Source: an uncultured Paracoccaceae bacterium
GTDB lineage: Bacteria; Pseudomonadota; Alphaproteobacteria; Rhodobacterales; Rhodobacteraceae
Assembly: GCA_947492825.1 (NCBI GenBank)
Contig: CANLNT010000002.1
Coordinates: forward strand, 442,501 to 506,500
Length of the DNA stretch: 64,000 nt
Direction: 5' to 3'
The notes under the pieces are model-generated. The model worked only from the letters and a program-made list of their open reading frames with translations. It did no database searches and was not told the DNA's origin. Numbering within the stretch: the stretch's first letter is position 1; every line of letters begins with the position of its first letter. This document shows, piece by piece, positions 1,664 through 17,417 of the stretch. The translations under genes were made by a program, and so were the position numbers.

Positions 1664-2956
1664 ATGAAATCACTGATGAACTCGGCTCTGGGCCTTTCGC
1701 TGGTTGTTGCAGGCGCAACAACAGCAACGGCTGACAGCCACGCAACTGAACTGACAATCGCAATCGTCAACAACGGCCACATGATCAACATGCAGACCGT
1801 TGCGGAAGCTTACACCGAAGAAACCGGCGTCGTCCTGAACTGGGTCTCGCTGGAAGAAGGCGTTCTGCGCGAGCAGGTGACCTCTGACACCGCAACCGGT
1901 GGTGGCCAGTACGACATCATCAACATCGGCATGCAGGAAGCACCGATCTGGGGTGCCGCAGGCTGGATTGAGCCGCTGAACTTTGGCGCTGAGTACGACG
2001 TCGACGACATGCTGCCAGCAATGCGCAACGGTCTGTCGCACGAAGGCACACTCTACGCTGCACCATTCTACGGTGAGTCTTCGATGGTCATGTACCGCAA
2101 GGACCTGATGGATGCTGCCGGCGTGTCTATCGCTGACAACGACAGCTGGGACAACATCAAGGCAGCTGCAGCTGCAATCCACGATCCCGACAATGGTGTC
2201 TACGGCGTATGTCTGCGCGGTAAGCCAGGCTGGGGCGACAACATGGCGTTCATCACAACTGTTGTGAACTCCTTCGGTGGCGCATGGTTTGATGCTGACT
2301 TCACGCCAACACTCGACTCTGACGAGTGGAACGCTGCAATCAACTTCTACGTTGATCTGCTCGGCGCATACGGCCCTCCAGGCTCTGAAGGTAACTCCTT
2401 CAACGAGATCCTCGCGCTTTACAACGAAGGCAAGTGCGGCATGTGGATCGACGCAACAATCGCTGCTTCTTTCCTTGAAGTAGACGGTGTTGCATATGCT
2501 CAGTCGCCAAACGCTGGTAACCCAGTTGGTGCGAACTGGCTGTGGGCTTGGGCGATGGCAATTCCTGCCGGTTCGCCAAACGCCGAAGCTGCTGCAGACT
2601 TCATCGAGTGGGCCACTTCCAAAGAGTACATCCAGGCCGTGGGTAACCACCCTGAGTTCGGCTGGGGCTCTGTCCCAACTGGTACACGTGCGTCCACGTA
2701 TGAAATCCCTGAGTTCCAGGCTGCTGCTGCATTCGCCGCCGCCGAGAAAGCAGCGATTGACTCTGCCGCTCCAGAAGCAACTGACATCAAGCCATACGTA
2801 GGCGTTCAGTTCGCTGCCATCCCTGAGTTCCCAGAGGTTGGTTCCGCTGTTGCTCAGGAAATGGCAGCCGCTCTGTCCGGTTCCAAGTCCGTCGAGGATG
2901 CACTGGCTGCTGCACAAGCTGCTGCTGTCGCCATCATGGACGAAGCTGGCTACTAA
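1664..2956 (+). CDS. smoE: Polyol (sorbitol/mannitol) ABC transporter substrate-binding protein
   Basis: A 430-residue family 1 extracellular solute-binding protein that captures the polyol in the periplasm and delivers it to the two permeases that follow. Residues 1-23 are a Sec signal peptide (cleavage expected near TATA|DS). The mature part has the expected fold signatures, such as GGGQYDIINIGMQEAPIWG and the hinge region around GKCGMWIDATIAASF. The start at 1664 follows a strong ribosome-binding site (GGGAGGAAAATC). Substrate assignment comes from the neighbouring polyol dehydrogenases and resemblance to the smo operon of Rhodobacter. The gene uses many GCA/ACA/GCT codons compared with its GC3-rich neighbours, as might be expected for a highly expressed protein. 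Confidence 0.85.
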   Translation: MKSLMNSALGLSLVVAGATTATADSHATELTIAIVNNGHMINMQTVAEAYTEETGVVLNWVSLEEGVLREQVTSDTATGGGQYDIINIGMQEAPIWGAAGWIEPLNFGAEYDVDDMLPAMRNGLSHEGTLYAAPFYGESSMVMYRKDLMDAAGVSIADNDSWDNIKAAAAAIHDPDNGVYGVCLRGKPGWGDNMAFITTVVNSFGGAWFDADFTPTLDSDEWNAAINFYVDLLGAYGPPGSEGNSFNEILALYNEGKCGMWIDATIAASFLEVDGVAYAQSPNAGNPVGANWLWAWAMAIPAGSPNAEAAADFIEWATSKEYIQAVGNHPEFGWGSVPTGTRASTYEIPEFQAAAAFAAAEKAAIDSAAPEATDIKPYVGVQFAAIPEFPEVGSAVAQEMAAALSGSKSVEDALAAAQAAAVAIMDEAGY

Positions 2957-2973
2957 GCCGCCTTAGAAAATGC

Positions 2974-3001
2974 GGGGTCCGGCCATCGCTGGCCGGACCC
3001 C
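2974..3001 (+). terminator. Strong hairpin between binding-protein and permease genes
   Basis: An uninterrupted 11-bp stem (GGGGTCCGGCC / GGCCGGACCCC) with loop ATCGCT lies 18 bases after the binding-protein stop. No T-run follows, so it is more likely a 3' mRNA-protecting or partial-attenuation hairpin than a full terminator. This would keep binding protein in excess over permease. Confidence 0.7.
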
Positions 3002-3123
3002 ACCCCACCGCATAATTTGATCGCCGCCCCGAACCGCGCAATATTGATGCTGCTGGCAGGGCGGTGGCGACCCGCCACTTGACCGACCACACTACTCCTC
3101 AGCTTTGCAAGGGTACTCAAGCC

Positions 3124-4062
3124 ATGTCTGACAGAACCATCCCAAGACTGCTGCAAACCCCCGCCGTGCTTCTTTTGCTGGTGTGGATGCTGGTCCCGCT
3201 GAGCATGACGCTCTTCTTCTCGTTCATCCGCTATGCACTGAACAACCTGCGGCGACCTGAATGGACAACGCCCGACATCGCCAACTGGCGTGGTTTCGGC
3301 AACTACAATTACGTGCTGAACAACAAGGACTTTTGGTTCGCCATCCAGAACTCTGTCCTGATCGTGGCCAGCATCCTGATCATCACCGTCATCCTTGGAT
3401 TGGCCATCGCAGTGTTGGTAAATCGGTCCTTTCCGGGCCGTGGGATTGTCCGGGTCTTGCTGATCTCACCCTTCTTCGTGATGCCCGCTGTGAATGCAGT
3501 TCTGTGGATCAACATGATCCTTGATCCGGTGCTTGGGCTGAACGGTGTCGCCGTCGAAGGCATCAACAACATGGTGGCTGGTCTCAAGGATGCGCCGCTT
3601 GTCGGTTGGTTCTTTGCCCTTTGGCCAGAGCTGCGGCCCATTTCGTTCCGCGGAACAGATACGTCGGCCTATGCGGTCATCATGATGGTCGCGTGGCAAT
3701 GGACGCCCTTTGCAGTGCTGATCTTCATGACCTCGCTTCAATCCGAAGACGAAAGCCAGAAAGAAGCGGCGACGCTGGACGGTGCAGGACCCTGGTCGCA
3801 ATTCATCAACCTGACCGTGCCCCATCTGGCCCGACCCATTGCCATCGTGGTAATGATTCAGTCGATCTTTCACCTCTCGCTTTATGCCGAGATTGAGATT
3901 GTCAGCCGGGGCAACGGCAACAAGAACCTGCCGTATCTGATCGGCGAATTCTCTTCCAACAACATCGGTGCCGCGAGCGCCACGGGCATTTTCGCCGTCA
4001 TTCTCGCCAACATCATCGCGATCTTCTTGCTGCGCATGGTTGGCAAGAGCTTGATGGACTAA
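3124..4062 (+). CDS. smoF: Polyol ABC transporter permease 1
   Basis: A 312-residue inner-membrane permease of the binding-protein-dependent type (MalF-like), with about six membrane helices. The cytoplasmic EAA loop is visible as KEAATLDGAGPWSQFINLTVP, the contact site for the ATPase. I chose the ATG at 3124 (MSDRTIPRL), because the upstream in-frame extension to 3064 has no membrane or family character. It forms the transmembrane channel together with the next gene, 12 bases downstream. The substrate is inferred from the operon. Confidence 0.85.
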   Translation: MSDRTIPRLLQTPAVLLLLVWMLVPLSMTLFFSFIRYALNNLRRPEWTTPDIANWRGFGNYNYVLNNKDFWFAIQNSVLIVASILIITVILGLAIAVLVNRSFPGRGIVRVLLISPFFVMPAVNAVLWINMILDPVLGLNGVAVEGINNMVAGLKDAPLVGWFFALWPELRPISFRGTDTSAYAVIMMVAWQWTPFAVLIFMTSLQSEDESQKEAATLDGAGPWSQFINLTVPHLARPIAIVVMIQSIFHLSLYAEIEIVSRGNGNKNLPYLIGEFSSNNIGAASATGIFAVILANIIAIFLLRMVGKSLMD

Positions 4063-4074
4063 GGGGGCAAGACG

Positions 4075-4911
4075 ATGGCTGCAGTTACTGAACGCTCAAG
4101 ATTTGGCGGTATCATCTGGCCCACTGTGGCCTGGATCGTCGCGCTGATCTTCTTCTTTCCGATCTTCTGGCTGGTCTTCACCAGCTTCAAAACAGACGCA
4201 GATGCGGTGAAGCCTGAACATCTGTTCTTCTTTACGCCGACGCTCGAAAACTACGCCAATATGACCCAAAACTACGATTACTGGCGCTTTGCCATCAACT
4301 CGGTCATCACATCGACATTTGCGACCCTGTTCGCATTGGCCGTTGGCGTACCCTGTGCCTATGCGATGGCGTTCAATCCCAGCCGGCATACCAAGGACAT
4401 CCTGATGTGGATGCTGTCCACCAAGATGCTGCCAGCGGCTGCGGTGCTTTACCCGATGACCTTTCTGACCAAGAATTTCCTTGGCATCTTCGACACCCAT
4501 TTTCTGGTGATCCTGGTGCTGTGCCTGATCAACTTGCCGATCGCGATCTGGATGCTTTTCACCTACTTTAAGGAGATCCCGAAAGAGATCATCGAAGCCA
4601 GCAAGATGGACGGCGTCACCACATGGGGCGAGATTAAGGATATCCTGATCCCGCTGGCGTGGGGCGGTGTCGCCTCGACCGCGCTTCTGACCTTTATCTT
4701 TTGCTGGAACGAGGCTTATTGGACAGTTCGCCTGACAACCGTTGACGCAGCCACGCTGTCAAAACTGATCGAAGGCAACCGCGCGCCCGAGGGTCTTTTC
4801 TTTGGCCGCTTGTCGGCGGTGTCGACGGCAGCCGTCGGCCCGATCATCGTGCTGGGCTGGTTCTGTCAGAAGCAGCTGGTCCAAGGCCTGACCTTTGGTG
4901 CGGTAAAGTAA
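4075..4911 (+). CDS. smoG: Polyol ABC transporter permease 2
   Basis: A 278-residue MalG-type permease with six membrane helices, starting with FPIFWLVFTSFKTDADAV, a hallmark of the family. The EAA loop is IPKEIIEASKMDGVTTWGEI. It pairs with the preceding permease to form the channel. A ribosome-binding site (AGGGGGC) precedes ATG 4075. Its stop TAA overlaps the ATG of the next gene by one base (TAATG), indicating translational coupling with the dehydrogenase. Confidence 0.86.
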   Translation: MAAVTERSRFGGIIWPTVAWIVALIFFFPIFWLVFTSFKTDADAVKPEHLFFFTPTLENYANMTQNYDYWRFAINSVITSTFATLFALAVGVPCAYAMAFNPSRHTKDILMWMLSTKMLPAAAVLYPMTFLTKNFLGIFDTHFLVILVLCLINLPIAIWMLFTYFKEIPKEIIEASKMDGVTTWGEIKDILIPLAWGGVASTALLTFIFCWNEAYWTVRLTTVDAATLSKLIEGNRAPEGLFFGRLSAVSTAAVGPIIVLGWFCQKQLVQGLTFGAVK

Positions 4912-5669
4912 TGTTGAATCCTGCCCCCACAGATATGACCGGTAAGACAGCCCTTGTGACGGGTGCGTCCGGCGGCATTGGTGCCAGTGCGGTCGCACAT
5001 TTCGCGGCGCTGGGGGCTACGGTCTATGCGACCGACATTGCCGACGAATTTGAGGGGTCAGCCGCATATGAATCTTTCGATTTGCTCGAAGATGGGGGCC
5101 TCGCGGATTGCACCGACTGGATTGCCACGATCAAGCCCGACATCCTGTTCAACAACGCCGCGATCTTTGACATGGGGTCAGTTTTGGACGCGGATCTTGC
5201 GCAATACGACCGGTTGTTCGGCGTCAACGTGCGGGCGTTCTATGCAGTGATGCAGGCCGCGGCCAAGTCAATGGTTGCCGTCGGGCAGGGCGGGTCGATC
5301 ATCAACCTCGCTTCACAGGCGGGCCACCGGGGCGAGGCGCTGGTGGCCCATTACTGCGCCACCAAGGCGGCCGTCATCAGCTATACCCAATCCGCCGCGC
5401 TGGCGCTTGCGCCGCATAAAGTGCGAGTTAACGCGATCAGCCCGGGTGTGATCGACACACCAATGTGGGGCACAGTGGATGCCCTGTTTGCAAAGTTTGA
5501 AAACAAGAAACCGGGTCAGAAAAAGCGTGAAGTCGGCGAGGCCGTGCCCCTTGGCTACATGGGATCACCAGATGATGTCGCCCGTGCTGCGGTATTCCTT
5601 GCCAGCGATCAGTCGGCCTATATGACGGCCCAGACCATCGGTGTCGATGGCGGCAACGTCTTGAGGTAG
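4911..5669 (+). CDS. smoS: SDR-family sorbitol (L-iditol 2-) dehydrogenase
   Basis: A 252-residue short-chain dehydrogenase, expected to oxidise sorbitol to fructose (or galactitol to tagatose) with NAD in the cytoplasm. The cofactor motif TGASGGIG is at residues 17-24, NNAA at 81-84, and the catalytic residues are Ser135, Tyr148 and Lys152 (YCATK). The C-terminal end GVDGGNVLR is typical of classical SDRs. The position inside the polyol operon, after the permeases, supports a SmoS/PolS-type role. The exact polyol cannot be decided from sequence alone. Confidence 0.83.
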   Translation: MLNPAPTDMTGKTALVTGASGGIGASAVAHFAALGATVYATDIADEFEGSAAYESFDLLEDGGLADCTDWIATIKPDILFNNAAIFDMGSVLDADLAQYDRLFGVNVRAFYAVMQAAAKSMVAVGQGGSIINLASQAGHRGEALVAHYCATKAAVISYTQSAALALAPHKVRVNAISPGVIDTPMWGTVDALFAKFENKKPGQKKREVGEAVPLGYMGSPDDVARAAVFLASDQSAYMTAQTIGVDGGNVLR

Positions 5670-5673
5670 CAAC

Positions 5674-6567
5674 ATGTCAATCATCGCGCCAGAAATCGAA
5701 ATGGTCGACCGGTCCAGCCGGTCCATCCGGTATCTTGAACATGGCTGGCCCAGCGATCTGTGTCGGTGGCATGCGCATGAGGAATACGAACTGCATCTGA
5801 TCGTGGCCACCCGAGGCAAGGCCTTTGTCGGCGATTACATCGGTGACTTTTCGGCGGGCGATCTGTTCATGACCGGCCCCAATCTGCCACACAACTGGAT
5901 CACCGACAAAGTCTGGTCAACGCCTGTCGCCACCCGCGATATGCTTGTGCAGTTCAGCCATGAAAGCGTTGAAAAGCTTGCCGAGGGCTTCCCCGAATTC
6001 TCGCAAGTTCTGCAACTGTTACATCTGGCCCAATCGGGCATCCGATTTGTTGGCTTCAACCCGACATTTGCGCGCGGTCACATGGAATCGATCCGCGACA
6101 ACAAGGGCGCCGAACGTATTCTGGCCTTTGTCCGCTTTTTGGTGCGCCTGAATGAACACGCCGAGAAAGAGGTCTTGTCAGCTGCCAAACTGGTGCAGCC
6201 ACAAGGTGGCAGCAAACACGCCCGGATCGGGCAGGTGATTGATCATATTACCAAGAACTTCAAGGATGAGATCGCCGTGGCACAAGCCGCCGATATGGCC
6301 GGAATGACCCAAGCCACGTTCAGCCGCAACTTTCAGGCCGTCACCGGTCACGGCTTTGTCGATTTCCTCAACCGGATTCGCATCGGTCAAGCATGCAGCA
6401 TGCTTTATGCCACCGACGAACAGATCACCAACATATGCCACGATGCGGGCTTTAACAATCTGGCTAATTTCAACCGCCACTTCCTGAAACTCAAGGGCAT
6501 GACCCCGTCGGAATATCGGGAAACGGCCCGCAAGGATCTGGCGCCTAAACTGGAATCGACCTCATGA
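5674..6567 (+). CDS. AraC-family transcriptional regulator of the polyol operon
   Basis: A 297-residue regulator. The N-terminal third is a cupin-like ligand-binding domain (RWHAHEEYELHLI, GDYIGDFSAGDLFMTGPNLP). The C-terminal 100 residues carry the double helix-turn-helix, with the first HTH around IAVAQAADMAGMTQATFSRN and the second ending FNNLANFNRHFLKLKG. It lies inside the operon, 4 bases after the SDR gene, and its TGA overlaps the ATG of the mannitol dehydrogenase gene (ATGA). It probably binds an imported polyol or a product and activates transcription from the region before 1664. In the classical Rhodobacter smo operon no regulator lies at this position as far as I recall, so the placement is worth noting. 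Confidence 0.85.
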   Translation: MSIIAPEIEMVDRSSRSIRYLEHGWPSDLCRWHAHEEYELHLIVATRGKAFVGDYIGDFSAGDLFMTGPNLPHNWITDKVWSTPVATRDMLVQFSHESVEKLAEGFPEFSQVLQLLHLAQSGIRFVGFNPTFARGHMESIRDNKGAERILAFVRFLVRLNEHAEKEVLSAAKLVQPQGGSKHARIGQVIDHITKNFKDEIAVAQAADMAGMTQATFSRNFQAVTGHGFVDFLNRIRIGQACSMLYATDEQITNICHDAGFNNLANFNRHFLKLKGMTPSEYRETARKDLAPKLESTS

Positions 6568-7985
6568 ACACTGCTACGACCTCTCATGTTCATGCGACAA
6601 GTTTTGCCCGCACCGATTGCGCGGTTGGCGTGGTCCACTTGGGTTTCGGTGCCTTTCATCGCGCCCATCAAGCAGTCTATCTGGACGACTACATGCAAGC
6701 CTCTGGCGATCTGCGGTGGGGCATCGCCGCCGTAAATCTACGCGGGTCCGAAGCCGCGCAGTTTGAGGCGGTCGTCGAGGATATTGCGCGGCACGACGGT
6801 TACTTTCTCAAGGCGACATCCCCTGACGGCGATGTAGCACTGCGCCGGGTTCGCTCGCATGTCGCCTTCGCGGATTGGAGCGTTGATACGGCCGGTTCCG
6901 AGGCATTGCTGTCCCTGCCATCGGTTCATCTGGTCACTATCACAGTCACTGAAAGCGGTTACTACACCGATCCTAGGGGTGACCTGAACACTGCCGATCC
7001 CGTCATTGCGGCAGAGGCCAAGGGCAGTGACGCGCAAAGCGTTTATGGCTACCTGCGGGGCGCACTTGCCAGCCGTATGCAGCGGACCGACGCGCCGCTG
7101 ACCATCGCCTGTTGCGACAACATTCGCCAAAATGGCAAGATGCTGCAGCGGAATTTGCTGGCCTATCTTGAGGCATGCGGCGAAAGCGAACTGCATAGCT
7201 GGGTCGCATCCAATGTGGCGTTCCCATGCTCGATGGTTGACCGTATCACGCCACGCAGTCCTGACAGCCTGGGCGCAGAGCTTGCGGCACTTGTGGGCAA
7301 AGACGTGACCTCGCCCATCATGGCTGAGGATTTTATGCAGTGGGTGTTGCAGGATAACGCCGCGGCGGACATGCCGGACCTTGCACAGGCCGGCGTCACG
7401 GTCACTGCCGACGTCGATCCCTACGAGGAAACGAAGATCCGCGTGCTGAATGGCGGCCACACTGCTTTGTGCTATCTGGCGGCTCTGGAAGGTGTTGACA
7501 CTTTCGATGCGGCGATGCGCGTGCCTGCTTTGAATGACCATTTCCACCGGTTCCAAACGGATGAGGTTCTGCCCGCGATCCGTATCGCGCTGCCGTTTTC
7601 CAAGACTGACTACCGCGACGCCATAGCGCGCCGTTTTGGCAATCAGGCCATAGGTGACACGGTTGCTCGCATCTGTGCGGATGGCATGGCCAAATTCCCG
7701 ATCTTCATCCGTCCGACCCTGCAAGGCTGTCTCGAACAAGGAATTGTGCCGGTCTATACCGCGCGCAGCATTGCCAGTTGGTACGTGTTTGCCCGTCACG
7801 TGGCCGCTGGAAAGATTCCTTTCAAATATGTGGAGCCTAGCTGGGCAGAGCTTAAGGCAATGCTTGGCACCGATGGCTTTGTCACCAGTCGAAAGCTGTG
7901 GGGAGACATCCCCGAAACCTATCCCGAATTTGCCGCCACACTGCGGCACGAAATCAAAGAATTGGAGACGAAATGGCCGGTTTGA
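6564..7985 (+). CDS. mtlK: Mannitol dehydrogenase-family polyol 2-dehydrogenase
   Basis: A 473-residue long-chain polyol-specific dehydrogenase that oxidises D-mannitol (or D-arabinitol) to the ketose with NAD. The N-terminal nucleotide-binding segment reads [20 protein letters not shown]. The conserved family segments TVTESGYY (near residue 130) and [16 protein letters not shown] (C-terminal domain; the Lys and Asn are expected catalytic residues) are present. Length matches the family. Translation is coupled to the AraC gene (ATGA overlap), and the 3' end overlaps the start of the ATPase gene by 13 bases. Confidence 0.87.
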
Positions 7986-9007
7986 CACTACGCGATGTCC
8001 GCAAAAGCTATGGCGAAACTCAAGTCATGCACGGTGTCGATCTTGATATCGAAGACGGCGAATTTGTTGTGTTCGTAGGCCCATCGGGCTGCGGTAAGTC
8101 CACCTTGCTGCGCATGATTGCGGGGCTCGAAGAAATTTCTGACGGCTCTGTGGCGATTGGTGATACCGTCGTGAACGAAGTCGCGGCCTCCAAGCGTGGC
8201 GTCGCGATGGTGTTCCAAACCTATGCTCTTTATCCGCATATGACCGTCTACAAGAACATGGCTTTTGGCCTGAAGCAGGCCAAGACCGACCCCGTAGAGA
8301 TTGACCGCCGTGTCAAAGCTGCGGCCGAGATTTTGCAGATCACCGACTATCTGGACCGCGCCCCGCGCAACTTGTCAGGCGGGCAACGCCAGCGGGTCGC
8401 CATTGGCCGCGCCATTGTGCGCGACCCAGAGGTGTTCTTGTTCGATGAACCATTGTCTAACCTTGATGCGGCCCTGCGCGTTGCGACACGCCTTGAAATT
8501 GCACGCCTGCACGAGCGCCTGAAGACAACAATGATCTATGTGACCCACGACCAGGTCGAGGCGATGACCCTGGCTGACAAGATCGTGGTGTTGCGCGATG
8601 GCCGGATCGAACAGGTCGGTTCTCCGATCACGCTCTATGACACTCCGGCAAACGCATTTGTGGCGCAGTTTATTGGCAGCCCCAAGATGAATTTCTTTGG
8701 CGCGGACGAGCTGTCCGCAAGCGCCAGCACCGTACTGGGTCGAGAGGTTGCAGCCACTGAGCAAGTCGGGTTCCGCCCTGAACATCTGACCGTTGGTAGT
8801 GAAAGCAACGCCGTCATCGAAGGTCGCATGGAACTGATTGAAAACCTGGGTGAATACGCCCTTGTTCATCTCATCTCACCCGCGGGCACGGAATTCATCG
8901 CCAAAACCGAAAAGCCCCCAGCAGGTGCAAAGGGCAGCACGATCCACTTTTCTATCAAGCCTGAGCTGGCTCACTACTTCGACCGGGAAAGCGGGTTGCG
9001 GGCCTAG
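7973..9007 (+). CDS. smoK: Polyol ABC transporter ATP-binding protein (MalK-type)
   Basis: A 344-residue ATPase that energises the SmoEFG importer. Walker A is GPSGCGKST at residues 36-44, the signature is LSGGQRQR, and Walker B is [11 protein letters not shown], followed by the H-loop VTHDQ. The C-terminal ~110 residues are the OB-like (TOBE) domain of MalK-type ATPases. I chose ATG 7973 (GGAG ribosome-binding site at 7964), inside the end of mtlK, because the family always starts within a few residues of a [11 protein letters not shown]-like segment. It is the last gene of the operon. Its TAG stop shares the palindrome CTAG with the stop of the convergent TetR gene. Confidence 0.9.
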
Positions 9008-9576
9008 ACGTCTGTTGGCTTTTTGATCAGGGCAAGGGTTGCGGATTTGATGGTCCGCAACCGCCGCTCAAGATGGGCCGCATCTGCGGCACCATATTTG
9101 GCGTTGAAGCTGCTGGAATAGAAGAATTCGACAATGTCATCCAATGGTGTTGCGGTCTTGGGCGCAGGTCCCAGCGCATCTGCAAAAGCGCTGGTCAATT
9201 CTGCTTTCCAAAGGACTTCAAGCTCGGCCATTTCCTCGGCCGCAGCGGTGTGCATGCCTTCCAGCAGCTCTGCCCAATCGGGGGCCGCATGTATCGCTTC
9301 ATACCATGTCTGTGGTCCCAATTTTTGAAAGGTGCTTAGTTTGGCGTCCAGTGTCGCATCACTGGCCCAAGCCGCTTTGATCTGGTTCAGCGACTCTTCA
9401 CCGTAAAGCCGGACAACGGCCCGCAAGATTTCTTCTTTGCTTGAAAAAGTGTTGTAAACAGTCTGACGGGCGACATTTGCCGCAGACGCAATGTCATTCA
9501 TCGTCGTCTTGCCAAAGCCATAGCGCGAAAACTGTGCGTGCGCCGCTTTGATTATGTTGATCGTCTTCTCATTCAT
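9004..9576 (-). CDS. TetR-family transcriptional regulator
   Basis: A 190-residue repressor-type regulator. The N-terminal HTH is clear ([20 protein letters not shown] then [15 protein letters not shown]). The C-terminal ligand domain does not identify an effector. It is divergent from the molybdenum hydroxylase operon, 80 bases away, and the spacer contains two inverted repeats, so it most likely represses that operon and itself. The 3' end overlaps the convergent ATPase gene through a shared CTAG. Confidence 0.85.
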
Positions 9577-9584
9577 CGCAAACG

Positions 9585-9614
9585 ATTTGACAAACTCATC
9601 TCAAGATGTCAAAT
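9585..9614. promoter_or_regulatory. Inverted repeat 1, candidate TetR operator
   Basis: ATTTGACA (9585-9592) and TGTCAAAT (9607-9614) form a perfect 8-bp inverted repeat with a 14-base centre in the TetR/iorA-like divergent spacer. The right arm ends on the first base of inverted repeat 2. Confidence 0.5.
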
Positions 9615-9638
9615 GGACAAAGGTGATACATTTGTCCA
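9614..9638. promoter_or_regulatory. Inverted repeat 2, candidate TetR operator
   Basis: TGGACAAA (9614-9621) and TTTGTCCA (9631-9638) form a perfect 8-bp inverted repeat with a 9-base centre, total 25 bases, immediately upstream of the ribosome-binding site (GGAGG, 9646-9650) of the 2Fe-2S subunit gene. Its size and place fit a TetR dimer-pair site. Confidence 0.55.
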
Positions 9639-9656
9639 AAACGTTGGAGGATCCCA

Positions 9657-10121
9657 ATGATACTGACAGTGAACGGCCAACCGCGCGAGGTTGATGTCGA
9701 AGATGACATGCCTCTGCTTTGGGTCTTGCGCGACGAATTGGGCCTTACCGGCACAAAATACGGCTGCGGCATCGCACAATGCGGGGCCTGCACAGTGCAT
9801 ATGGATGGCTTGGCCGTGCGCAGCTGTCAGGTTGCCGCCGCAACCGCCGACGGTGCGGATATCCTCACCATCGAAGGGTTGGGAACACCCGACGCACTGC
9901 ATGCGGTGCAGGAGGCTTGGGTTGAACATCAGGTCGCGCAATGCGGCTACTGCCAGTCTGGTCAGATCATGCAGGCGGCGTCACTTCTTGACCTGAATCC
10001 GAACCCCTCTGATCAGGACATTGACATCGTGATGAGCGGTAATTTGTGTCGCTGCGGGACCTATCCGCGCATTCGTGATGCGGTCAAGACCGCCGCTGTC
10101 AAATTGCAGGGGGCAGGATAA
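9657..10121 (+). CDS. (2Fe-2S) subunit of a molybdenum hydroxylase, IorA type
   Basis: A 154-residue protein carrying two [2Fe-2S] clusters that pass electrons from the molybdenum site. The plant-type N-terminal cluster motif is CGIAQCGAC with a later VRSC, and the C-terminal four-helix cluster has CGYC and LCRC. Length and layout match the small subunit of isoquinoline 1-oxidoreductase and related aldehyde oxidases. There is no FAD subunit next to it, which fits this subgroup: electrons leave through cytochrome c rather than FAD. The stop overlaps the next start by one base (TAATG). Confidence 0.88.
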
Positions 10122-12364
10122 TGGGTCGCCTTCGCACAATTGGTCGCCGTAGCTTTCTGGTCGGGTCCGCTGCCGTGTTGGGCGGGGTCGCCTTTGGCGT
10201 CTATCGCGCAAATCGCCCGTTTGAGAACCCGAATTTGGCGGAATTGTCGCAGGACGCCGTCAGCTTCAATCCGTGGGTCATCATTGATGCCGAAAAGATC
10301 ACGCTGATCGCACCTCATGCTGACAAGGGCCAAGGCGTCATGTCCGCGCAGGCCGCCTTGATCGCTGAAGAATTGGACGTCACCCTTGATCAGGTTGAAA
10401 TCAGCTTTGGTACGCCAGATCAGGCCTACTTCAATACAGCCTTCGCTGACGCGGCTGTGCCGTTCCCGCAATACGACTTCCGCGACACTGTAGAGACGAT
10501 GCGCGAGATCGCGGGCGGTGTTCTGCGCGCATTTCTTCCGATCATGGGAACGGGTGGATCCTCGGCCATGCCGGACAGCTACGACAAATTGCGTCAGGCC
10601 GGAGCGTTGGCACGCGAAACGTTGAAAGCCGCCGCCGCGCAGCAAGCCAGTGTCGATGTTAGCACTCTGAAAACCGCAAACGGCGCAGTTGAACTGCCCG
10701 ATGGCAAAACGCTGCTATATACCGAATTGGCTGCAGCCGCCGGACAAATCGCGCCGGTCAAAGATGTGCAACTGCGCGACCCGTCACAATGGCGCATTCT
10801 GGGCAAGCCGATGGAGCGGGTAGATATCAAGGCAAAGTCCACCGGCACGCAGACCTATGGAATCGATCATCAGGCTGACGACCTGTTGCACGCGACGATC
10901 AAGGTCAATCCCCGGCAAGGCGGCGCACTGGAATCCTATGATGATACTGCAGCACGCGACATGCGCGGCGTTGTTGATATCTTTGAAATCACCGGCGGGA
11001 TCGCGGTGGTTGCCGACAACACATGGCGCGCCATTCAAGCTGCCAATGCCGTGGACTGCACCTGGGGCCCTGCATCCTACCCCGCGGAACAGGATGCCCA
11101 CTGGGCGGCCTTGTCGGCTGCGTTTGTGCCCGAAAAACTGAATGCTGAGGCGCGCACAGTTGGTGATGTTGATGCTGCCTCGGGCGATGAAGTCACCGGC
11201 GAATACCGCTCACCTTACGTGGCACATGCTCCGTTGGAGCCACTGAATGCCACGATTCTTGTAACCGATGACCGGGTTGATATCTGGACCGGCCACCAGC
11301 TTCAGATGATGGTGGAATCGGACGTCGCCAACCTCACCGGGCTCGACGCCAGCAACGTGCACCTGCACAACATGTTCATCGGTGGCAGTTTTGGTCACCG
11401 GCTCGAAATGGACTTCGTGCGGCAGGCAGCTGAGATTGCAATGAAGATGCGCGGGACGCCTGTCAAAATGACCTATTCCAGGGAAGAGGATTTTGCACAT
11501 GACTTCCCCCGTCACATCACCATGGGGCGCGGCGTTGGCAAACACGCTGATGGCAAGGTCGTGTCGTTGGATGTGCAGATCGCGGGGCAATCCGTGCTGA
11601 CCTCTCAGATGTCGCGTATGGGGCTTAGCTTGCCTGGCCCGGACACCCAGCTTCACGAAGGGGCCTGGGACGTCCCAAATCTTAACCTACCCAACCTACG
11701 GGTCCGGTCGTACAAGGAAACCAGCCTTGCACCAGTATCGTCTTGGCGTTCTGTCGGCGCGGCGCCTAATACGTTCATCTATGATACGCTGCTGGATGAA
11801 ACGATCGATGCCGCTGGTGCGGACCCGCTCGCAGAACGTATCCGTTTGATGGGGCATGACGTCTCTGTGAAAGTGCTCGAAACGGTTGCCGACATGTGCA
11901 GCTGGAACGGCCATGATCTGGGCAATGGACGCGGGCGCGGTATTGCCTATGCCTTTTCCTTTGGCGTACCGGTGGCGACAGTCGTCGAGGTGACGCAGAC
12001 CGATGGCGGCATCCGCCTTGATGAGGTCTGGATCGCCGCGGACGTGGGGCAAGTGATTGACCCGGTCAACCTTGAAAACCTGGCGTTCGGCGGCACGATC
12101 TTTGGCCTCGGCCATGCGATGAACTGCGAGATCACCTATGCCGACGGCATGGCGCAGCAGTCAAACTATCACGCGCACGAAGCGATGCGCCTGTATCAGA
12201 CGCCGCGCATGCATTTCACTGCGCTCGAAAACACACCCAAGATCAAAGGCTTTGGCGAACCACCGGTGCCGCCCGCGGCACCTGCGCTGGGCAATGCAAT
12301 CTTTGCTGCAACCGGCCAACGCCTGCGCGAAATGCCATTCAACAAATTTGTCGACTTTGTCTAA
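10121..12364 (+). CDS. Molybdopterin-binding subunit of a molybdenum hydroxylase, IorB type
   Basis: A 747-residue catalytic subunit (xanthine dehydrogenase family, molybdopterin cytosine dinucleotide type). The N-terminus RRSFLVGSAAVLGGVAFGVY is a twin-arginine-like leader or anchor, placing the enzyme in or facing the periplasm. The C-terminal part contains the catalytic Glu in GFGEPPVPPAAPA, expected to act as base in hydroxylation of an aldehyde or N-heterocycle. SWRSVGAAPNTF is the cofactor-binding segment typical of IorB. It works with the preceding FeS subunit. The substrate is unknown; isoquinoline is only the namesake of the family. Confidence 0.87.
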   Translation: MGRLRTIGRRSFLVGSAAVLGGVAFGVYRANRPFENPNLAELSQDAVSFNPWVIIDAEKITLIAPHADKGQGVMSAQAALIAEELDVTLDQVEISFGTPDQAYFNTAFADAAVPFPQYDFRDTVETMREIAGGVLRAFLPIMGTGGSSAMPDSYDKLRQAGALARETLKAAAAQQASVDVSTLKTANGAVELPDGKTLLYTELAAAAGQIAPVKDVQLRDPSQWRILGKPMERVDIKAKSTGTQTYGIDHQADDLLHATIKVNPRQGGALESYDDTAARDMRGVVDIFEITGGIAVVADNTWRAIQAANAVDCTWGPASYPAEQDAHWAALSAAFVPEKLNAEARTVGDVDAASGDEVTGEYRSPYVAHAPLEPLNATILVTDDRVDIWTGHQLQMMVESDVANLTGLDASNVHLHNMFIGGSFGHRLEMDFVRQAAEIAMKMRGTPVKMTYSREEDFAHDFPRHITMGRGVGKHADGKVVSLDVQIAGQSVLTSQMSRMGLSLPGPDTQLHEGAWDVPNLNLPNLRVRSYKETSLAPVSSWRSVGAAPNTFIYDTLLDETIDAAGADPLAERIRLMGHDVSVKVLETVADMCSWNGHDLGNGRGRGIAYAFSFGVPVATVVEVTQTDGGIRLDEVWIAADVGQVIDPVNLENLAFGGTIFGLGHAMNCEITYADGMAQQSNYHAHEAMRLYQTPRMHFTALENTPKIKGFGEPPVPPAAPALGNAIFAATGQRLREMPFNKFVDFV

Positions 12365-12376
12365 GGGGCCACCGTC

Positions 12377-12991
12377 ATGAAACTTTGGTTGGCATCGGCC
12401 ATCATCGCATTGACCGCTTCGTCCGTCTTGGCCGCGGGCGAAAACGTCGAAATCACGCCGCCTGCAGATGGCACGATCAGCCGGGAACAGGCGCTTGCCG
12501 CATGGGACCGTATTTATGAGGTTGCGTCGCATCCGCGGTGTTCGAATTGTCACGTGGGCGCGAACAATCGCCCGATGTGGTCAGGCCCAAGCTACGGCAA
12601 GACCCGCCCGCACGGGATGAACATCAATGCGGGCGACAGCCGCATCGGGGTTGAGACGATCCAGTGCAGCACGTGCCACGCCTACCGCGAGGGGTTGAAC
12701 GACATACCTCATGCCGCGCCGCAGGTCGCCATGAATTGGCAACTTGCCCCGGTTGAGGCGGAATGGTTTGGCAAATCCTCAACAGATGTTTGCAACCAAC
12801 TGCGCGACCCTGACCGCAACGGTGGACGCGACTATCTGGAAATCGCCAGCCACCTTGACCACGACCTGATCCTGCATTGGGCATGGAACCCCGGTGGCGG
12901 CCGCGAACCGGCCCCTTACGATCTGCAGTCCCACGTCAATGACGTGCTGGCCTGGGGAGTCGGCGGCATGCCCTGCGCGAATGATGAATGA
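12377..12991 (+). CDS. Exported dihaem c-type cytochrome
   Basis: A 204-residue protein with an N-terminal signal peptide (about 20 residues, LTASSVLAA) and two haem-attachment motifs, CSNCH at 55-59 and CSTCH at 97-101. Met71-type axial ligands cannot be assigned by eye. It lies 12 bases after the molybdenum subunit gene and is very probably the periplasmic electron acceptor of that enzyme, passing electrons to the respiratory chain. Two more cysteines (near residues 140 and 200) could form a disulfide. I do not recognise a named family. Confidence 0.75.
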   Translation: MKLWLASAIIALTASSVLAAGENVEITPPADGTISREQALAAWDRIYEVASHPRCSNCHVGANNRPMWSGPSYGKTRPHGMNINAGDSRIGVETIQCSTCHAYREGLNDIPHAAPQVAMNWQLAPVEAEWFGKSSTDVCNQLRDPDRNGGRDYLEIASHLDHDLILHWAWNPGGGREPAPYDLQSHVNDVLAWGVGGMPCANDE

Positions 12992-13001
12992 GGCAACGAC
13001 C

Positions 13002-13346
13002 ATGACACTGATCCAAGGCCCGTTTCGCTGGGCAATTCCATTTGTGTTGATCAGCGCGCTCTTGCATATGATTGCGCCGGTGATCAGCGGCTTTGCTGTC
13101 CCGTCGCTGATGTTTTTCGTCATTGGCTTGATCTACTTGGCCTGCGCCTTTGGCCTGTCACGCGGAATGCGGTGGTTGGGCTATGTCATGTTCTTTGTGA
13201 TAGCCGTTGGCGGCATTTCGGCATTGGGCGCTATCTGGGCGGCGGGTCCAGTGCCTGGATGGCTTTTTGCCTCCTTCGCTGTGGTCAACTGCCTGGCGTT
13301 CCTGACGCTTTTTGCGACGCTCTGGCGCGCGCCGGAAACGGTCTAG
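13002..13346 (+). CDS. Small four-helix membrane protein
   Basis: A 114-residue protein with four hydrophobic helices and short loops, no charged catalytic motif. I chose ATG 13002 (AGG ribosome-binding site about 8 bases upstream); ATGs at 12981 and 12984 overlapping the cytochrome gene are possible alternatives and would add six or seven residues. It is the last gene of the molybdenum hydroxylase operon and might be an accessory of the cytochrome or an unrelated membrane protein. Its TAG stop shares CTAG with the stop of the convergent kynureninase gene. Confidence 0.6.
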   Translation: MTLIQGPFRWAIPFVLISALLHMIAPVISGFAVPSLMFFVIGLIYLACAFGLSRGMRWLGYVMFFVIAVGGISALGAIWAAGPVPGWLFASFAVVNCLAFLTLFATLWRAPETV

Positions 13347-14536
13347 GTCACACGGGCCTTGCGCAGGTAGATGGGGTCGTCCCACAGTCGCTGGTCTAGC
13401 ACCTCGGCCAGCACATCCACGGCGCGGTGCACGTCGCTGTCATCCAGATAAAGCGGCGTAAAGCCGAACCGCATGATGTTGGGCGCGCGAAAGTCGCCAA
13501 TCACATCCCGCGCGATCAAGGCTTGCATCGCCGCATAGCCATGCTCAAACGCGAACGAGACCTGCGAGCCGCGTTCGGCCGGGTTGCGCGGGCTGGCAAG
13601 GGTCAATTGCGGGCAGCGCGTCTCGACCTCTGCGATGAAAAGTTCGCTCAGCGTGATACTTGCTGCACGCAAAACGCCCATATCGACGCCGTCCCAAACC
13701 TCCATCGCGGCTTCTAGTGCTGCCATCTGCAACACCGGTGGCGTGCCCACGCGCATGCGTTCGATGTCCTTTCCGGGCCTGTAGGACGGTTCAAATGCAA
13801 AGGGCGCATCGTGGCCCAGCCAACCTGACAGCGCAGGCGCGATGGTGCCGGATAGATCGGATCTAACGTAGATGAAGGCAGGCGCACCCGGACCACCGTT
13901 GAGGTACTTGTAGGTACAGCCCACGGCAAACTCACATCCCAGCGCTGCCACATCAACAGGGACAGCCCCCGCACTATGGGCCAGATCCCAGACCATCACT
14001 GCACCAACGTCATGCGCGCGTTTGGTGATTGCCTGCATGTCGTGCATACGGCCAGAGCGATAATCAACCTGCGTGATCATGACCACTGCGACTTCTTCGG
14101 TGATGGCTGCGGTCACATCTTCGGGGGCCACCGTGCGCAATGTGTGGCCCGCATTGAGATGGGCGATCAGCCCCTCTGCCATGTAAAGGTCTGTTGGAAA
14201 ATTCCCGGTGTCGGACAAGACCACCTTGCGATCCGGCCGCATGCTGAGCGCGGCCGACAGAGCCTGATAGACCTTGATCGACAGCGTGTCGCCCAGAACA
14301 ACGGACCCGGCAGGCGCACCGATCAGCCGCCCAATGTTATCGCCCAACCGCACCGGCTGCCCCATCCAATCGTCTTGGTTCCAACCTTTGATCAGATGCT
14401 GCCCCCATTCATCCGCGACGACGCGCGCCAGATGCTCTGGCACCGCGCGCGGCAGAGGCCCCAAAGAGTTACCATCCAGATAGACCATGCCATCAGGCAG
14501 AACGAACTTGTCTTTCATCGGCAGGGAAGGGGGCAT
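13343..14536 (-). CDS. kynU: Kynureninase
   Basis: A 397-residue pyridoxal-phosphate enzyme (fold type I) that cleaves L-kynurenine to anthranilate and alanine. Family segments visible: YLDGNSLGPLP, TGNFPTDLY, VWDLAHSAGAVPVDV and the PLP-lysine region CTYKYLNGGPGAPAF (Lys of TYKYLNGG). Length matches the bacterial enzyme. Start ATG 14536 has AGGA 7 bases upstream. No kynA or kynB is adjacent, so the rest of the tryptophan pathway must be elsewhere. It is divergent, 124 bases from the adenylation-thiolation-thioesterase gene, so anthranilate as that protein's substrate is an open possibility but unproved. Confidence 0.9.
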   Translation of the reverse strand: MPPSLPMKDKFVLPDGMVYLDGNSLGPLPRAVPEHLARVVADEWGQHLIKGWNQDDWMGQPVRLGDNIGRLIGAPAGSVVLGDTLSIKVYQALSAALSMRPDRKVVLSDTGNFPTDLYMAEGLIAHLNAGHTLRTVAPEDVTAAITEEVAVVMITQVDYRSGRMHDMQAITKRAHDVGAVMVWDLAHSAGAVPVDVAALGCEFAVGCTYKYLNGGPGAPAFIYVRSDLSGTIAPALSGWLGHDAPFAFEPSYRPGKDIERMRVGTPPVLQMAALEAAMEVWDGVDMGVLRAASITLSELFIAEVETRCPQLTLASPRNPAERGSQVSFAFEHGYAAMQALIARDVIGDFRAPNIMRFGFTPLYLDDSDVHRAVDVLAEVLDQRLWDDPIYLRKARVT

Positions 14537-14660: not shown

Positions 14661-17417
14661 ATGTCCCACCAACCCTGGTCATCGCTCTGGCAAACAATCG
14701 AAGGATCTGGCGACCGCCCTGCACTTATTGGTGCGGACGGACATGTGCTGACCTATCGCGGATTGTGCGAGCGTCGCGCGACATGGCATCGGGCGATTCA
14801 TGTGGCAGGGCCATTGCGTGTGGCGACGCTGTTCGAGAACGGCCCTGACACGGCTGTTGCCCTCTTGTCGTTGCTCGATCAGGTGCGGCTTTGTCCGCTG
14901 AACCTTGAGGCGCAATCAGCGCGCCTGTCTGACAGCATCACCGAGGCGCAAATTGACGTGGTGCTGTATTCGTCGGCGCTCTCCGTCACGACCCTTGCCC
15001 ATCTGCAAAAGGAACATCCCGGTAAACTTGTGCCCGTGGATCTACAAAACGCCCGTCTGCTGGGCGAACTGCCAAAAGGTGGGCGTAATCAGGCGGGGCT
15101 GACCTTGTTTACCTCTGGCAGCACAGGCACACCAAAACGGGTGCCATTGACGCCCGATCAATTGGCGCTGTCCGCCACCAACATCTGCAACCACCTGCGC
15201 CTTGGACCCGCAGACCGCGCCGTACATGCGCTGCCGATGTTCCATGTTGGCGCGCTGGTTGATCTGTTGCTCGCGCCATTGTCGGCCGGCGGGACCGTCA
15301 TTATTGCCGCAAACCTCGAATCCACCTCACTGGTCAGCGCCGTCAGGACACATGCGGCGACTTGGCTGCAACTGGTGCCCACTGCGTTGCATCGGCTGAT
15401 GGCCGATCTGGACGACGCAACAGCGCAGGAAATCGGCCAAAGGCTGCGATTTCTACGTATGGTGTCCGCTGATTTGACGCTTGAATTGCGGGCGCAGGCC
15501 ACGTCTCGCCTTGGTCCCGTGCCGATCATTCAGATGTATGGCATGACTGAAACCGCGGGGCAGATCACCTCAATGTCGCTTGATGAAACTTTGCATAATC
15601 CAAGCGCTGTCGGTCGCGCTGCCGGGCCAGAGGTTGCCATCATTGACAACTTCCGAAACCGCCTACCTGCCGGACATGAGGGCGAGGTGTGTGTAAGCGG
15701 ACCCACCATCATGACTGGCTACGAAGGGACCGACATCACCCCGCGCTATGGTGACTGGTTCCGCACCGGCGACCTTGGGGTTTTGGACGAAGATGGCGTT
15801 TTGACGCTGACCGGACGCCTGAAAGAGCAGATCAATCGCGGCGGTGAAAAGATTTCACCTTTGGTGGTTGAACGCGCTGCCAAATCGGTGCCGGGGGTGT
15901 TGGATGCTGTGGCCTATGGCGTGCCACATCCAACGCTGGGAGAGCAGGTGGCTTTGGCCGTTGTTACTGACCAACCCCTTGAAGAAGCGACCTTGCTGGA
16001 AGCGTTACAAAGCCAACTTTCGGCGTTTGAAGTGCCGCGCAGAGTGCTATTCCTCGACGCTTTGCCGCAGTTGTCCAGCGGCAAAACCGACCGGCGGTCC
16101 TTGGCGTCAATGCCGGACCAGTCCGAAACTGCACACAGCCCAACCGACCCTTTGACGACCAAGGTGGCCACGATTTGGGCGACACACCTGCAATGTCGCA
16201 CTCCACATGCCCAGTCCGATTTCTTTGACGATGGCGGCGACAGTCTGGCCGCGACCGAATTCATCGCGCTGCTGGAAGATGCGCTGGGCAGATCTGTTGA
16301 CCCAAATATCCTATTTGAAGCACCGCGACTTGAAGCGCTTGTCGCTGCCCTGAGAGCTGATCAACCCAAGACGCAATCAGAACCGGCACACCTACAATAT
16401 CTGCGCAAACGCATCGCGGGTTGGCAAGGACAACGGGTTGGGCCGCATGGTCTGATTATTCTACGCAACTCGCTGGCACAGGGGACACCTGCATTCTTTT
16501 GCGCCAACGGCATGGCGATGCCGCGCCCCTTGTCGAACCACATTTTCAAGGATCACCCATTCCACATCATGCGGTCGCTGTTTGGCTTTGGCGGAAAGGA
16601 TACCGCGCTGAACGCGGAGCTGGCAAAGCTATACGCCCGCGACATCGCTAGCCTCCTGACCCCTGCCGAACCGGTAATTCTGGGTGGCTTTTGTGAAGGT
16701 GTCCGCGTGATGGAAATGGTGGGACAGGACCTGACAAAGTTAGGCCATCCCATCTCAATGTTCCTTGCAATCGACAACATGTTCGACGTATCGACGCCCT
16801 ACCCGGTCTACTATGTCTGGTCGAATAGCCCGAACTATTCGGGCGCTGTCCGCTATCGCGACCCCAGTTTGGGCTTTGCTGTGCTGCATCCGAAGGGAGC
16901 CGTCTTTCAGGCCTTTGACCGGGCCCACGTACATTTGCTGGATCGAGAGACCTTGCCGAAGTTGCGCAAGGCTGTGACGCCATACCTTGCGGGCAAGCCC
17001 CTGCCGCGTCAGACACCTTCAGATCAGATTTCTCTGCCGGAACGCAAAGCGCGGCACGACGCCCGGATTGCACTACATGCGCCACGGTTCTTGTCGCGTT
17101 CCAAGGCAAAAAGGGTGACTGTCACCGTCACAAACACCAGCAAGGTACCTTGGCCGCCAACCGCGGACAGTGGCCTGTTTTTATCCATCGATTTCGATGT
17201 GAACGGATTGGACACGACCATCCTGCGCCATGCGATCGCCGATTTTGCTACGGCCATCGCGCCGGGGGAAACGCAGCGCTTTGGGTTTGACCTGACATGG
17301 CCGAGCGCGCGGCGCCGGCCCTACCGATTGACTGCCCGAATTGTGGACGATGGAATGGCCCGGTTTGGTAGTGACACCGGTTCGGGCAACGGACGGCTCG
17401 TGTTCCGCATACCCTAG
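14661..17417 (+). CDS. Free-standing adenylation-thiolation-thioesterase (NRPS-like) protein
   Basis: A 918-residue multidomain enzyme. Residues ~5-500 are an adenylation domain: TSGSTGTPK (151-159), MYGMTETAG, WFRTGDLG, GRLKEQINRGGEKISP, SSGKTDR. The last motifs and FHVGA in the binding pocket resemble acyl-CoA ligases more than amino-acid-activating domains. Residues ~510-590 are a carrier domain with phosphopantetheine serine Ser528 (DDGGDSLAA). Residues ~620-800 are a thioesterase-like alpha/beta hydrolase whose nucleophile motif is GGFCEG, with Cys678 where Ser is usual; IDNMFD and RAHVHLL could supply Asp and His. The last ~110 residues form a predicted beta-sandwich (VTVTVTNTSKVPWPP). 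There is no condensation domain. It probably activates a carboxylic acid, holds it on the carrier and releases or condenses it at the Cys. No clear ribosome-binding site precedes ATG 14661, so the start is uncertain. Confidence 0.8.
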   Translation: MSHQPWSSLWQTIEGSGDRPALIGADGHVLTYRGLCERRATWHRAIHVAGPLRVATLFENGPDTAVALLSLLDQVRLCPLNLEAQSARLSDSITEAQIDVVLYSSALSVTTLAHLQKEHPGKLVPVDLQNARLLGELPKGGRNQAGLTLFTSGSTGTPKRVPLTPDQLALSATNICNHLRLGPADRAVHALPMFHVGALVDLLLAPLSAGGTVIIAANLESTSLVSAVRTHAATWLQLVPTALHRLMADLDDATAQEIGQRLRFLRMVSADLTLELRAQATSRLGPVPIIQMYGMTETAGQITSMSLDETLHNPSAVGRAAGPEVAIIDNFRNRLPAGHEGEVCVSGPTIMTGYEGTDITPRYGDWFRTGDLGVLDEDGVLTLTGRLKEQINRGGEKISPLVVERAAKSVPGVLDAVAYGVPHPTLGEQVALAVVTDQPLEEATLLEALQSQLSAFEVPRRVLFLDALPQLSSGKTDRRSLASMPDQSETAHSPTDPLTTKVATIWATHLQCRTPHAQSDFFDDGGDSLAATEFIALLEDALGRSVDPNILFEAPRLEALVAALRADQPKTQSEPAHLQYLRKRIAGWQGQRVGPHGLIILRNSLAQGTPAFFCANGMAMPRPLSNHIFKDHPFHIMRSLFGFGGKDTALNAELAKLYARDIASLLTPAEPVILGGFCEGVRVMEMVGQDLTKLGHPISMFLAIDNMFDVSTPYPVYYVWSNSPNYSGAVRYRDPSLGFAVLHPKGAVFQAFDRAHVHLLDRETLPKLRKAVTPYLAGKPLPRQTPSDQISLPERKARHDARIALHAPRFLSRSKAKRVTVTVTNTSKVPWPPTADSGLFLSIDFDVNGLDTTILRHAIADFATAIAPGETQRFGFDLTWPSARRRPYRLTARIVDDGMARFGSDTGSGNGRLVFRIP

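Follow-up and report, generated by a model that had tools for sequence, protein, structure and literature searches.

A synthetase without a condensation domain

The window analyzed here is a 64,000-nucleotide stretch of bacterial DNA (C2:442501-506500 in a 4.0-Mb genome whose family, judged from named relatives, is Rhodobacteraceae). It contains a gene for a protein that joins an adenylation (A) domain, a carrier (T) domain, a Cys-type thioesterase (TE), and a C-terminal immunoglobulin (Ig)-like domain, with a cytochrome P450 gene next to it (Table 1). The reading frame is open from position 14487, and the ATG at 14661 agrees with the starts of the aligned homologues. Pfam assigns AMP-binding to residues 11-354 (7.8e-50), AMP-binding_C to residues 403-475, and PP-binding to residues 501-564, and it finds no condensation domain in the 918-residue protein. 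Open reading frame (ORF), coordinates, and domains thus match the free-standing A-T-TE protein with carrier Ser528 that an earlier reading of the DNA letters alone (here, the original prediction) had described. Ser528 and the A10 Lys475 of the A domain are each invariant in the six full-length rows of the family alignment. The TE and C-terminal part of the window protein, taken alone, matches no Pfam family even at an E value of 10; the Pfam Thioesterase family is detected in six of the eight alignment members (best, 2.1e-9). The A-T-TE-Ig architecture with Cys at the nucleophile place is real and not due to chance.

Table 1. Features of the A-T-TE-Ig locus, in window coordinates
Feature	Coordinates	Strand	Remarks
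A-T-TE-Ig gene	14661..17417	+	918 aa
Adenylation domain, oxalate-CoA-ligase-like	14691..16085	+	residues 11-475
Carrier (T) domain	16161..16352	+	residues 501-564
Pantetheine Ser528 codon	16242..16244	+	codon checked
Lidless Cys-type thioesterase domain	16386..17000	+	~residues 576-780
Cys678 codon, predicted nucleophile	16692..16694	+	invariant 8/8; codon checked
Asp705 codon, predicted triad acid after beta6 (position I)	16773..16775	+	invariant 8/8; codon checked
His756 codon, predicted triad base	16926..16928	+	invariant 8/8; codon checked
C-terminal Ig-like beta-sandwich (possibly CARDB/FW-domain-like fold)	17043..17414	+	
Cytochrome P450	17414..18637	-	convergent with the A-T-TE gene; conserved partner
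Kynureninase	13343..14536	-	divergent neighbor; probably not part of the system

The top three solved matches of the A domain (1.3e-60, 7.8e-60, and 5.1e-55) are oxalate-coenzyme A (CoA) ligases of the AAE3/Pcs60 type (PDB 5ie0, 6qjz, and 8aff), after which come fatty-acyl/feruloyl- and malonyl-CoA ligases, none stronger than 1.6e-42. The best NCBIfam model for the window protein is a FadD7-type ligase, under the cutoff of that model. Oxalate-CoA ligases are stand-alone enzymes with neither carrier nor TE, unlike the window enzyme. Because the pocket-region motifs of the window protein (PMFHVGA and MYGMTETAGQ) differ from theirs in the alignment, oxalate is not implied as the substrate. The original prediction had called the A domain CoA-ligase-like and a non-amino-acid substrate likely; its closest solved relatives support this, and its sequence suggests that the substrate is probably a small carboxylic acid, not an alpha-amino acid.

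The C-terminal part is predicted to be a beta-sandwich of seven strands and about 120 residues, in agreement with the added sandwich of about 110 residues in the original prediction. It may have a fold of the CARDB or NBR1-FW type, and it resembles the sandwiches of glycoside hydrolases, a porphyran-binding module, and many others. Beta-sandwiches are widespread and do not reveal a function; the Ig-like domain may have a role in the pathway.

Predicted thioesterase triad and lineage

The family occupies eight distinct loci: the window, L006 to L011, and L047 (a sister strain, G333, is not counted). A profile of the eight rows matches solved TEs of nonribosomal peptide synthetases (NRPSs; 7dxo, 1.3e-11; 4zxh, 2.6e-10), and the GFCEG of the family aligns on their nucleophile motif. 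Cys678, Asp705 (+27), and His756 (+78) are invariant in the alignment of all eight loci, although across the rest of the TE-Ig part these rows share only 25-35% identity with the window. Cys678 had been proposed as the TE nucleophile; its place in the alignment agrees, and comparison of genomes shows that the architecture recurs with Cys conserved. An alpha/beta-hydrolase fold lies behind the carrier domain, as in NRPS type I TEs, and, judged from alignment and strand order, all eight proteins probably hold the Cys-Asp-His triad of that type. Both alignment and model place the triad Asp directly after strand beta6 (position I). In the predicted structure of the window TE, the lid between beta6 and beta7 is replaced by an 11-residue link; a helical lid at this place is a general but not universal trait of NRPS type I TEs.

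These features separate the window TE from those of ObiF and SulM, to which the original prediction had likened it as makers of strained rings. The catalytic Asp of ObiF and SulM follows strand beta7 (position II), a lid is present in both, ObiF has a glycine at position I, and Cys and His lie 138 residues apart in both ObiF1 and SulM, versus 78 in the window TE (PMC11298585, PMC6668435). Furthermore, ObiF1 and SulM TEs belong to full NRPS modules, whereas the window TE belongs to an A-T-TE protein. A closer likeness is the TE of AB3403, an Acinetobacter baumannii NRPS (PDB 4zxh), which has a Cys nucleophile and an Asp after beta6, as in the window TE. AB3403 is a four-domain NRPS whose TE is longer (its residues 976-1317 match 19-214 of the window model), and it is likewise described as uncharacterized (PMC11298585). 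Among NRPS TEs in a class-wide search, Ser is commoner than Cys, and a few others carry Cys. By sequence, a Cys nucleophile is not special to ObiF and SulM, since it is present in AB3403, in eight TEs with GGNC(Q/K)G motifs (see below), and in a few other NRPS TEs.

Two Maritimibacter genomes, Mesobacterium, Thalassovita, and a metagenome-assembled genome of Rhodobacteraceae encode full-length relatives that are 41-46% identical in the best segment; a Planktotalea relative (33% identity) is split between frames. In a family sample of 394 genomes (one per genus, plus a second genome of the window species), five members score 1e-136 or better against the TE-Ig profile, and the next match drops to 3e-39. 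The five are the window genome (G000), G333, G153 (L007), G229 (L010), and G370 (L047). With looser thresholds, 157 of the 394 genomes match at an E value of 1e-6, as do 39 of 385 genomes across the class at 0.001; most of the listed matches cover only the nucleophile surroundings, in ORFs of about 2,100 residues, and the two ORFs examined are of the polyketide synthase (PKS) type. A plasmid search with the whole protein gave 1170 records, none with 80% coverage, and one with the TE-Ig part gave two, both annotated as NRPSs. Two loci are disrupted. At L011 (Planktotalea arctica), A-T-TE lies in two frames (5821-8567 and 8557-12304) with the P450 gene interrupted, and the locus appears to be decaying; at L047/L075 (137-2858), the G370 gene is split between two frames on a 6.3-kb contig.

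Related TEs with GGNC(Q/K)G come from Rhodobacteraceae, another alphaproteobacterium, and Methylomagnum. In Rhodobacteraceae and Methylomagnum they sit within larger synthetases; the lineage also takes in a TE-Ig protein that stands alone, and an NRPS of the same class repeats the TE-Ig order. Eight of 13 such loci are readable. All eight have the Cys; six have a His at +77 to +80 and two a Tyr near there, and position +27 is E in five, D in two, and N in one. Because Cys is present in all of them, it is a trait of the wider lineage, of which the window family is the part with the full Cys-Asp-His set. As in the window enzyme, a similar Ig-like stretch follows the TE at L081, L129, and L146. 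L129 is the stand-alone TE-Ig protein; L145 and L146 are condensation-containing NRPSs by Pfam, unlike the window enzyme. The L145 protein (2806-12669, Rhodobacter sp. CZR27 plasmid), a C-A-T-TE with GGNCQG, adjoins a glycosyltransferase gene with a polysaccharide pyruvyl transferase gene close by, in what looks like a surface-glycan cluster. The L146 protein (2758-8814, Methylomagnum plasmid; 2018 aa) combines condensation, adenylation, carrier, Cys-TE (with the Tyr near the His place), and Ig-like parts with a sulfotransferase and tetratricopeptide (TPR) repeats.

Partner genes and neighbors

The P450 gene lies convergent to and directly downstream of A-T-TE in the window, L006, L007, L008, L009, and L047. 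At L011 it is also downstream, with about 2.5 kb containing IS66-family transposase ORFs interrupting, so that it stands beside the synthetase at seven of the eight loci. At L010 it is not adjacent; the same genome (G229) carries it elsewhere, next to an amidohydrolase gene. The P450 retains the heme Cys motif and has ADG(V/I)EN in six of six aligned rows, with N where the textbook motif ends in Thr. The amidohydrolase follows the P450 at five of the eight loci (L006, L007, L008, L009, and L047) and was not found within the 14.6 kb that L011 spans. Its nearest solved structures are cytosine deaminases (1.6e-17), and His34, His36, His205, His241, and Asp309, which we take to be metal ligands, are invariant in seven aligned rows. 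The association of the A-T-TE gene with the P450, and with the amidohydrolase at part of the loci, is newly described here. Among the culturable relatives, Mesobacterium pallidum T40-1 and Thalassovita litoralis carry all three genes. These conserved partners point to a pathway, in line with the uncharacterized small-molecule pathway originally suggested.

Genome searches that scored the best few candidates per genome found P450 matches of at least 1e-60 strength in six of the 394 family genomes; for the amidohydrolase, five genomes reach 1e-70. All of these strong matches fall in seven genomes: the five with A-T-TE and two (G266 and G327) with a sister fusion, in which a similar A-T is joined to a different C-terminal part (Pfam recognizes A and T in both, with a weak esterase match in one). 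At L074 (1649-10844), a sister A-T fusion and the amidohydrolase flank genes for NeuB, a cytidylyltransferase, a haloacid dehalogenase (HAD) phosphatase, and an oxidoreductase, as in nonulosonate pathways. Beside the G266 fusion (L073, 1036-4929) are a putative substrate-binding protein of a urea-type ATP-binding cassette (ABC) transporter (TIGR03427) and an agmatinase-like protein slightly below its cutoff.

Kynureninase was considered as a partner, with anthranilate as substrate, and set aside as unlikely: it is resident in six of six genomes of the genus versus two of six, both of one species, for A-T-TE, and tblastn did not find it in L006 to L011 or L047/L075. A class-V pyridoxal-phosphate (PLP) enzyme beside L007 was not found at any other locus examined. 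At L006, a thiolase gene lies beyond the amidohydrolase. The Maritimibacter P450-amidohydrolase pair (G229; L121, 7908-19501) lies between a major facilitator superfamily (MFS) transporter gene and genes that by eye resemble those of phenylacetate catabolism. A distant relative (30% identity) of the window's molybdenum oxidase (10121-12364) is near this pair; such enzymes are common. In the window, a 2Fe-2S subunit, the molybdenum hydroxylase (with a weak twin-arginine [Tat] signal match), and a small protein with two CxxCH motifs are encoded in a row (9657-12988), by appearance a periplasmic hydroxylase and its electron acceptor.

Proposed acyl transfer and its alternatives

All five A-T-TE genomes lack a match to the condensation family PF00668, as does G266; the other sister-fusion genome, G327, has one. 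For lack of a match in the A-T-TE genomes, delivery into an NRPS line is judged unlikely, a reason that fully holds for four of the five, G153 being the exception. The window genome is among the four in which no other assembly line was found, and its only ACPS-family match reads, by eye, as AcpS. G333, G229, and G370 have one such match each, G153 and G327 two good ones, and G266 a good and a weak one; a divergent Sfp-type enzyme could escape this search. In G153 (Mesobacterium; L161, 3289-15402), there is a PKS with the order KS-AT-KR-DH-carrier-TE, adjoined by a protein that combines a formyltransferase with two AMP-binding stretches, a luciferase-like monooxygenase, and a carrier domain; the second ACPS-family match of this genome is close to the PKS.

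We suggest that the window protein is a condensation-domain-free, carrier-based tailoring enzyme. The A domain would activate a small carboxylic acid and load it onto Ser528 of the carrier, and the neighboring P450 would oxidize the carrier-bound acyl group or, alternatively, the released product. Cys678 would then take the acyl group from the carrier, and the open, lidless site would hand it to an outside acceptor, namely a small molecule, carrier, or glycan that offers an amine, alcohol, or thiol, with no closure of a strained ring. In genomes that have it, the cytosine-deaminase-like amidohydrolase may act on a C-N bond of the substrate, acceptor, or product. Compared with guarded ring closure, transfer to an outside acceptor would be the better match for a Cys acyl-enzyme that has no lid. 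The computed features are the domains, the invariant triad positions, the absence of a lid in the model, the conservation of partner genes, and the lack of a condensation-domain match; the action of the P450 on the carrier, the acyl transfer, and the role of the amidohydrolase are what we infer. As a whole, oxidation by the P450 on the carrier with transfer by an open Cys-TE to an external acceptor is plausible, and we favor it tentatively.

Known systems offer partial models. In known stand-alone modules, an amino acid stays bound while it is tailored and is then released by a TE (novobiocin, nikkomycin, and vancomycin) or passed on by a shuttle (SyrC and CysB); CmaE shuttles the unit before tailoring (PMC7966384, PMC8748450, PMC8949500). 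In SyrB1/SyrC, CysH/CysB, and CmaA/CmaE, an A-T protein holds the activated unit and a transferase moves it on, as proposed for the window enzyme, and a tailoring enzyme can act on the unit bound to SyrB1 or CysH (PMC8949500, PMC8748450, PMC7966384). These systems differ from the window enzyme in that (i) their substrates are amino acids, delivered to other carriers or NRPS lines, whereas the A-T-TE genomes have no condensation match, and (ii) their transferase is a separate shuttle protein, whereas that of the window enzyme is fused. SyrC/CysB/CmaE-type shuttles have an alpha/beta-hydrolase fold with a Cys nucleophile. By analogy, the window enzyme resembles a stand-alone module whose loader, carrier, and transferase are joined into a single chain, with the P450 serving as the oxygenase.

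Several observations weigh against acyl transfer to an outside acceptor. Sequence does not decide between transfer and hydrolysis and names neither substrate, acceptor, nor product, and the absence of the lid rests on a predicted model. G153 holds a hybrid NRPS-PKS (no Pfam condensation match) as a possible receiver of the acyl group. The amidohydrolase is absent from the window genome and G333 (E value of 1e-70), as is the P450 from the sister-fusion genome G327; the top solved match of the P450 is a vitamin D hydroxylase, not BioI; and the P450 and A-T-TE genes are convergent, so they do not form an operon. The hypergeometric co-occurrence values of 1e-12 (P450) and 3e-10 (amidohydrolase), or 8e-11 each with the two same-species strains counted once, are inflated, as the queries were chosen by adjacency and only the best few candidates per genome were scored. 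More independent points are the unlinked P450-amidohydrolase pair in G229, the rarity of both genes elsewhere, and a Gemmobacter aquarius plasmid in which the amidohydrolase gene is directly 5' of a related A-T-TE with GGNCKG. Finally, we know of no characterized member of the A-T-TE-Ig family, and narrow literature searches limited to open-licence papers found no prior study of it.

The main rival, hydrolytic release, is somewhat unlikely. The P450 would hydroxylate the carrier-held acid and the TE would free the modified acid, as for the building blocks of novobiocin, nikkomycin, and vancomycin, systems in which P450s also act. The parts list (A-T, P450, and TE) is alike, the triad is complete, and the open site of the model would let water in. 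However, the residue invariant at all eight loci is Cys and not Ser, and its acyl-enzyme would be a thioester, suited to transfer; moreover, the A domain is nearest to acyl-CoA ligases and not to amino-acid domains.

Acylation of a polysaccharide or glycolipid, bound by the Ig-like domain and acylated by the lidless Cys-TE, is improbable. It would fit the glycosyltransferase and pyruvyl transferase genes around the L145 NRPS, the NeuB, cytidylyltransferase, and glycosyltransferase genes near the L074 sister fusion, and the resemblance of the C-terminal domain to sandwiches of glycan-related proteins, among many others; however, that fold is common and shows no function. Nor is there a glycan gene in the partial set of neighbors run through Pfam (six in the window, four at L006, two each at L007 to L010, two besides the transposase at L011, and none at L047), in which a carbohydrate kinase at L010 comes nearest.

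Strained-ring formation, in which P450 hydroxylation of the carrier-bound acyl group at the beta position would let the Cys-TE close a beta-lactone as ObiF does, is disfavored and still less probable. The Cys nucleophile and a P450 that could provide the hydroxyl speak for it; the Asp at position I in all eight proteins and the lid missing from the model speak against it. A furanone or quinone made by joining two aryl-pyruvate units is hardly to be expected. The original prediction had also named the fungal and Ralstonia A-T-TE enzymes that do this, and the analogy finds no support other than the identical domain order without a condensation domain: those enzymes use a Ser nucleophile in place of the Cys, the Ig-like domain is extra, and the A domain is nearest to oxalate-CoA ligases, although this alone is not decisive. 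A plain acyl-CoA ligase whose added domains have decayed, which the CoA-ligase-like A domain and the frame-split genes of L011 and L047 might suggest, is just as improbable given the invariant Ser528 and a triad kept in such diverged rows.

Extended beyond the window, acyl transfer to an outside acceptor would make the lidless Cys-TEs across Rhodobacteraceae a lineage of carrier-to-external-acceptor acyltransferases, in this subfamily joined to a loader of the oxalate-CoA-ligase type and served by a P450 and a cytosine-deaminase-like amidohydrolase of its own. This would be a new pathway class that dispenses with condensation; in the window genome at least, AcpS is the one carrier-activating enzyme recognized. 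We regard this extension as possible but doubtful. The enzyme itself is real and conserved, and it points to an unstudied small-molecule pathway and not to strained-ring chemistry. It separates two easily joined ideas, a Cys nucleophile in a carrier-linked TE and the formation of strained rings, and a lidless TE with Cys and a position-I Asp would naturally test the roles of the lid and the Asp position. Pathways of this type are likely missed by searches keyed on condensation domains. The synthetase, P450, and amidohydrolase form a small, expressible three-gene set, and comparison of a small number of strains could reveal its product.

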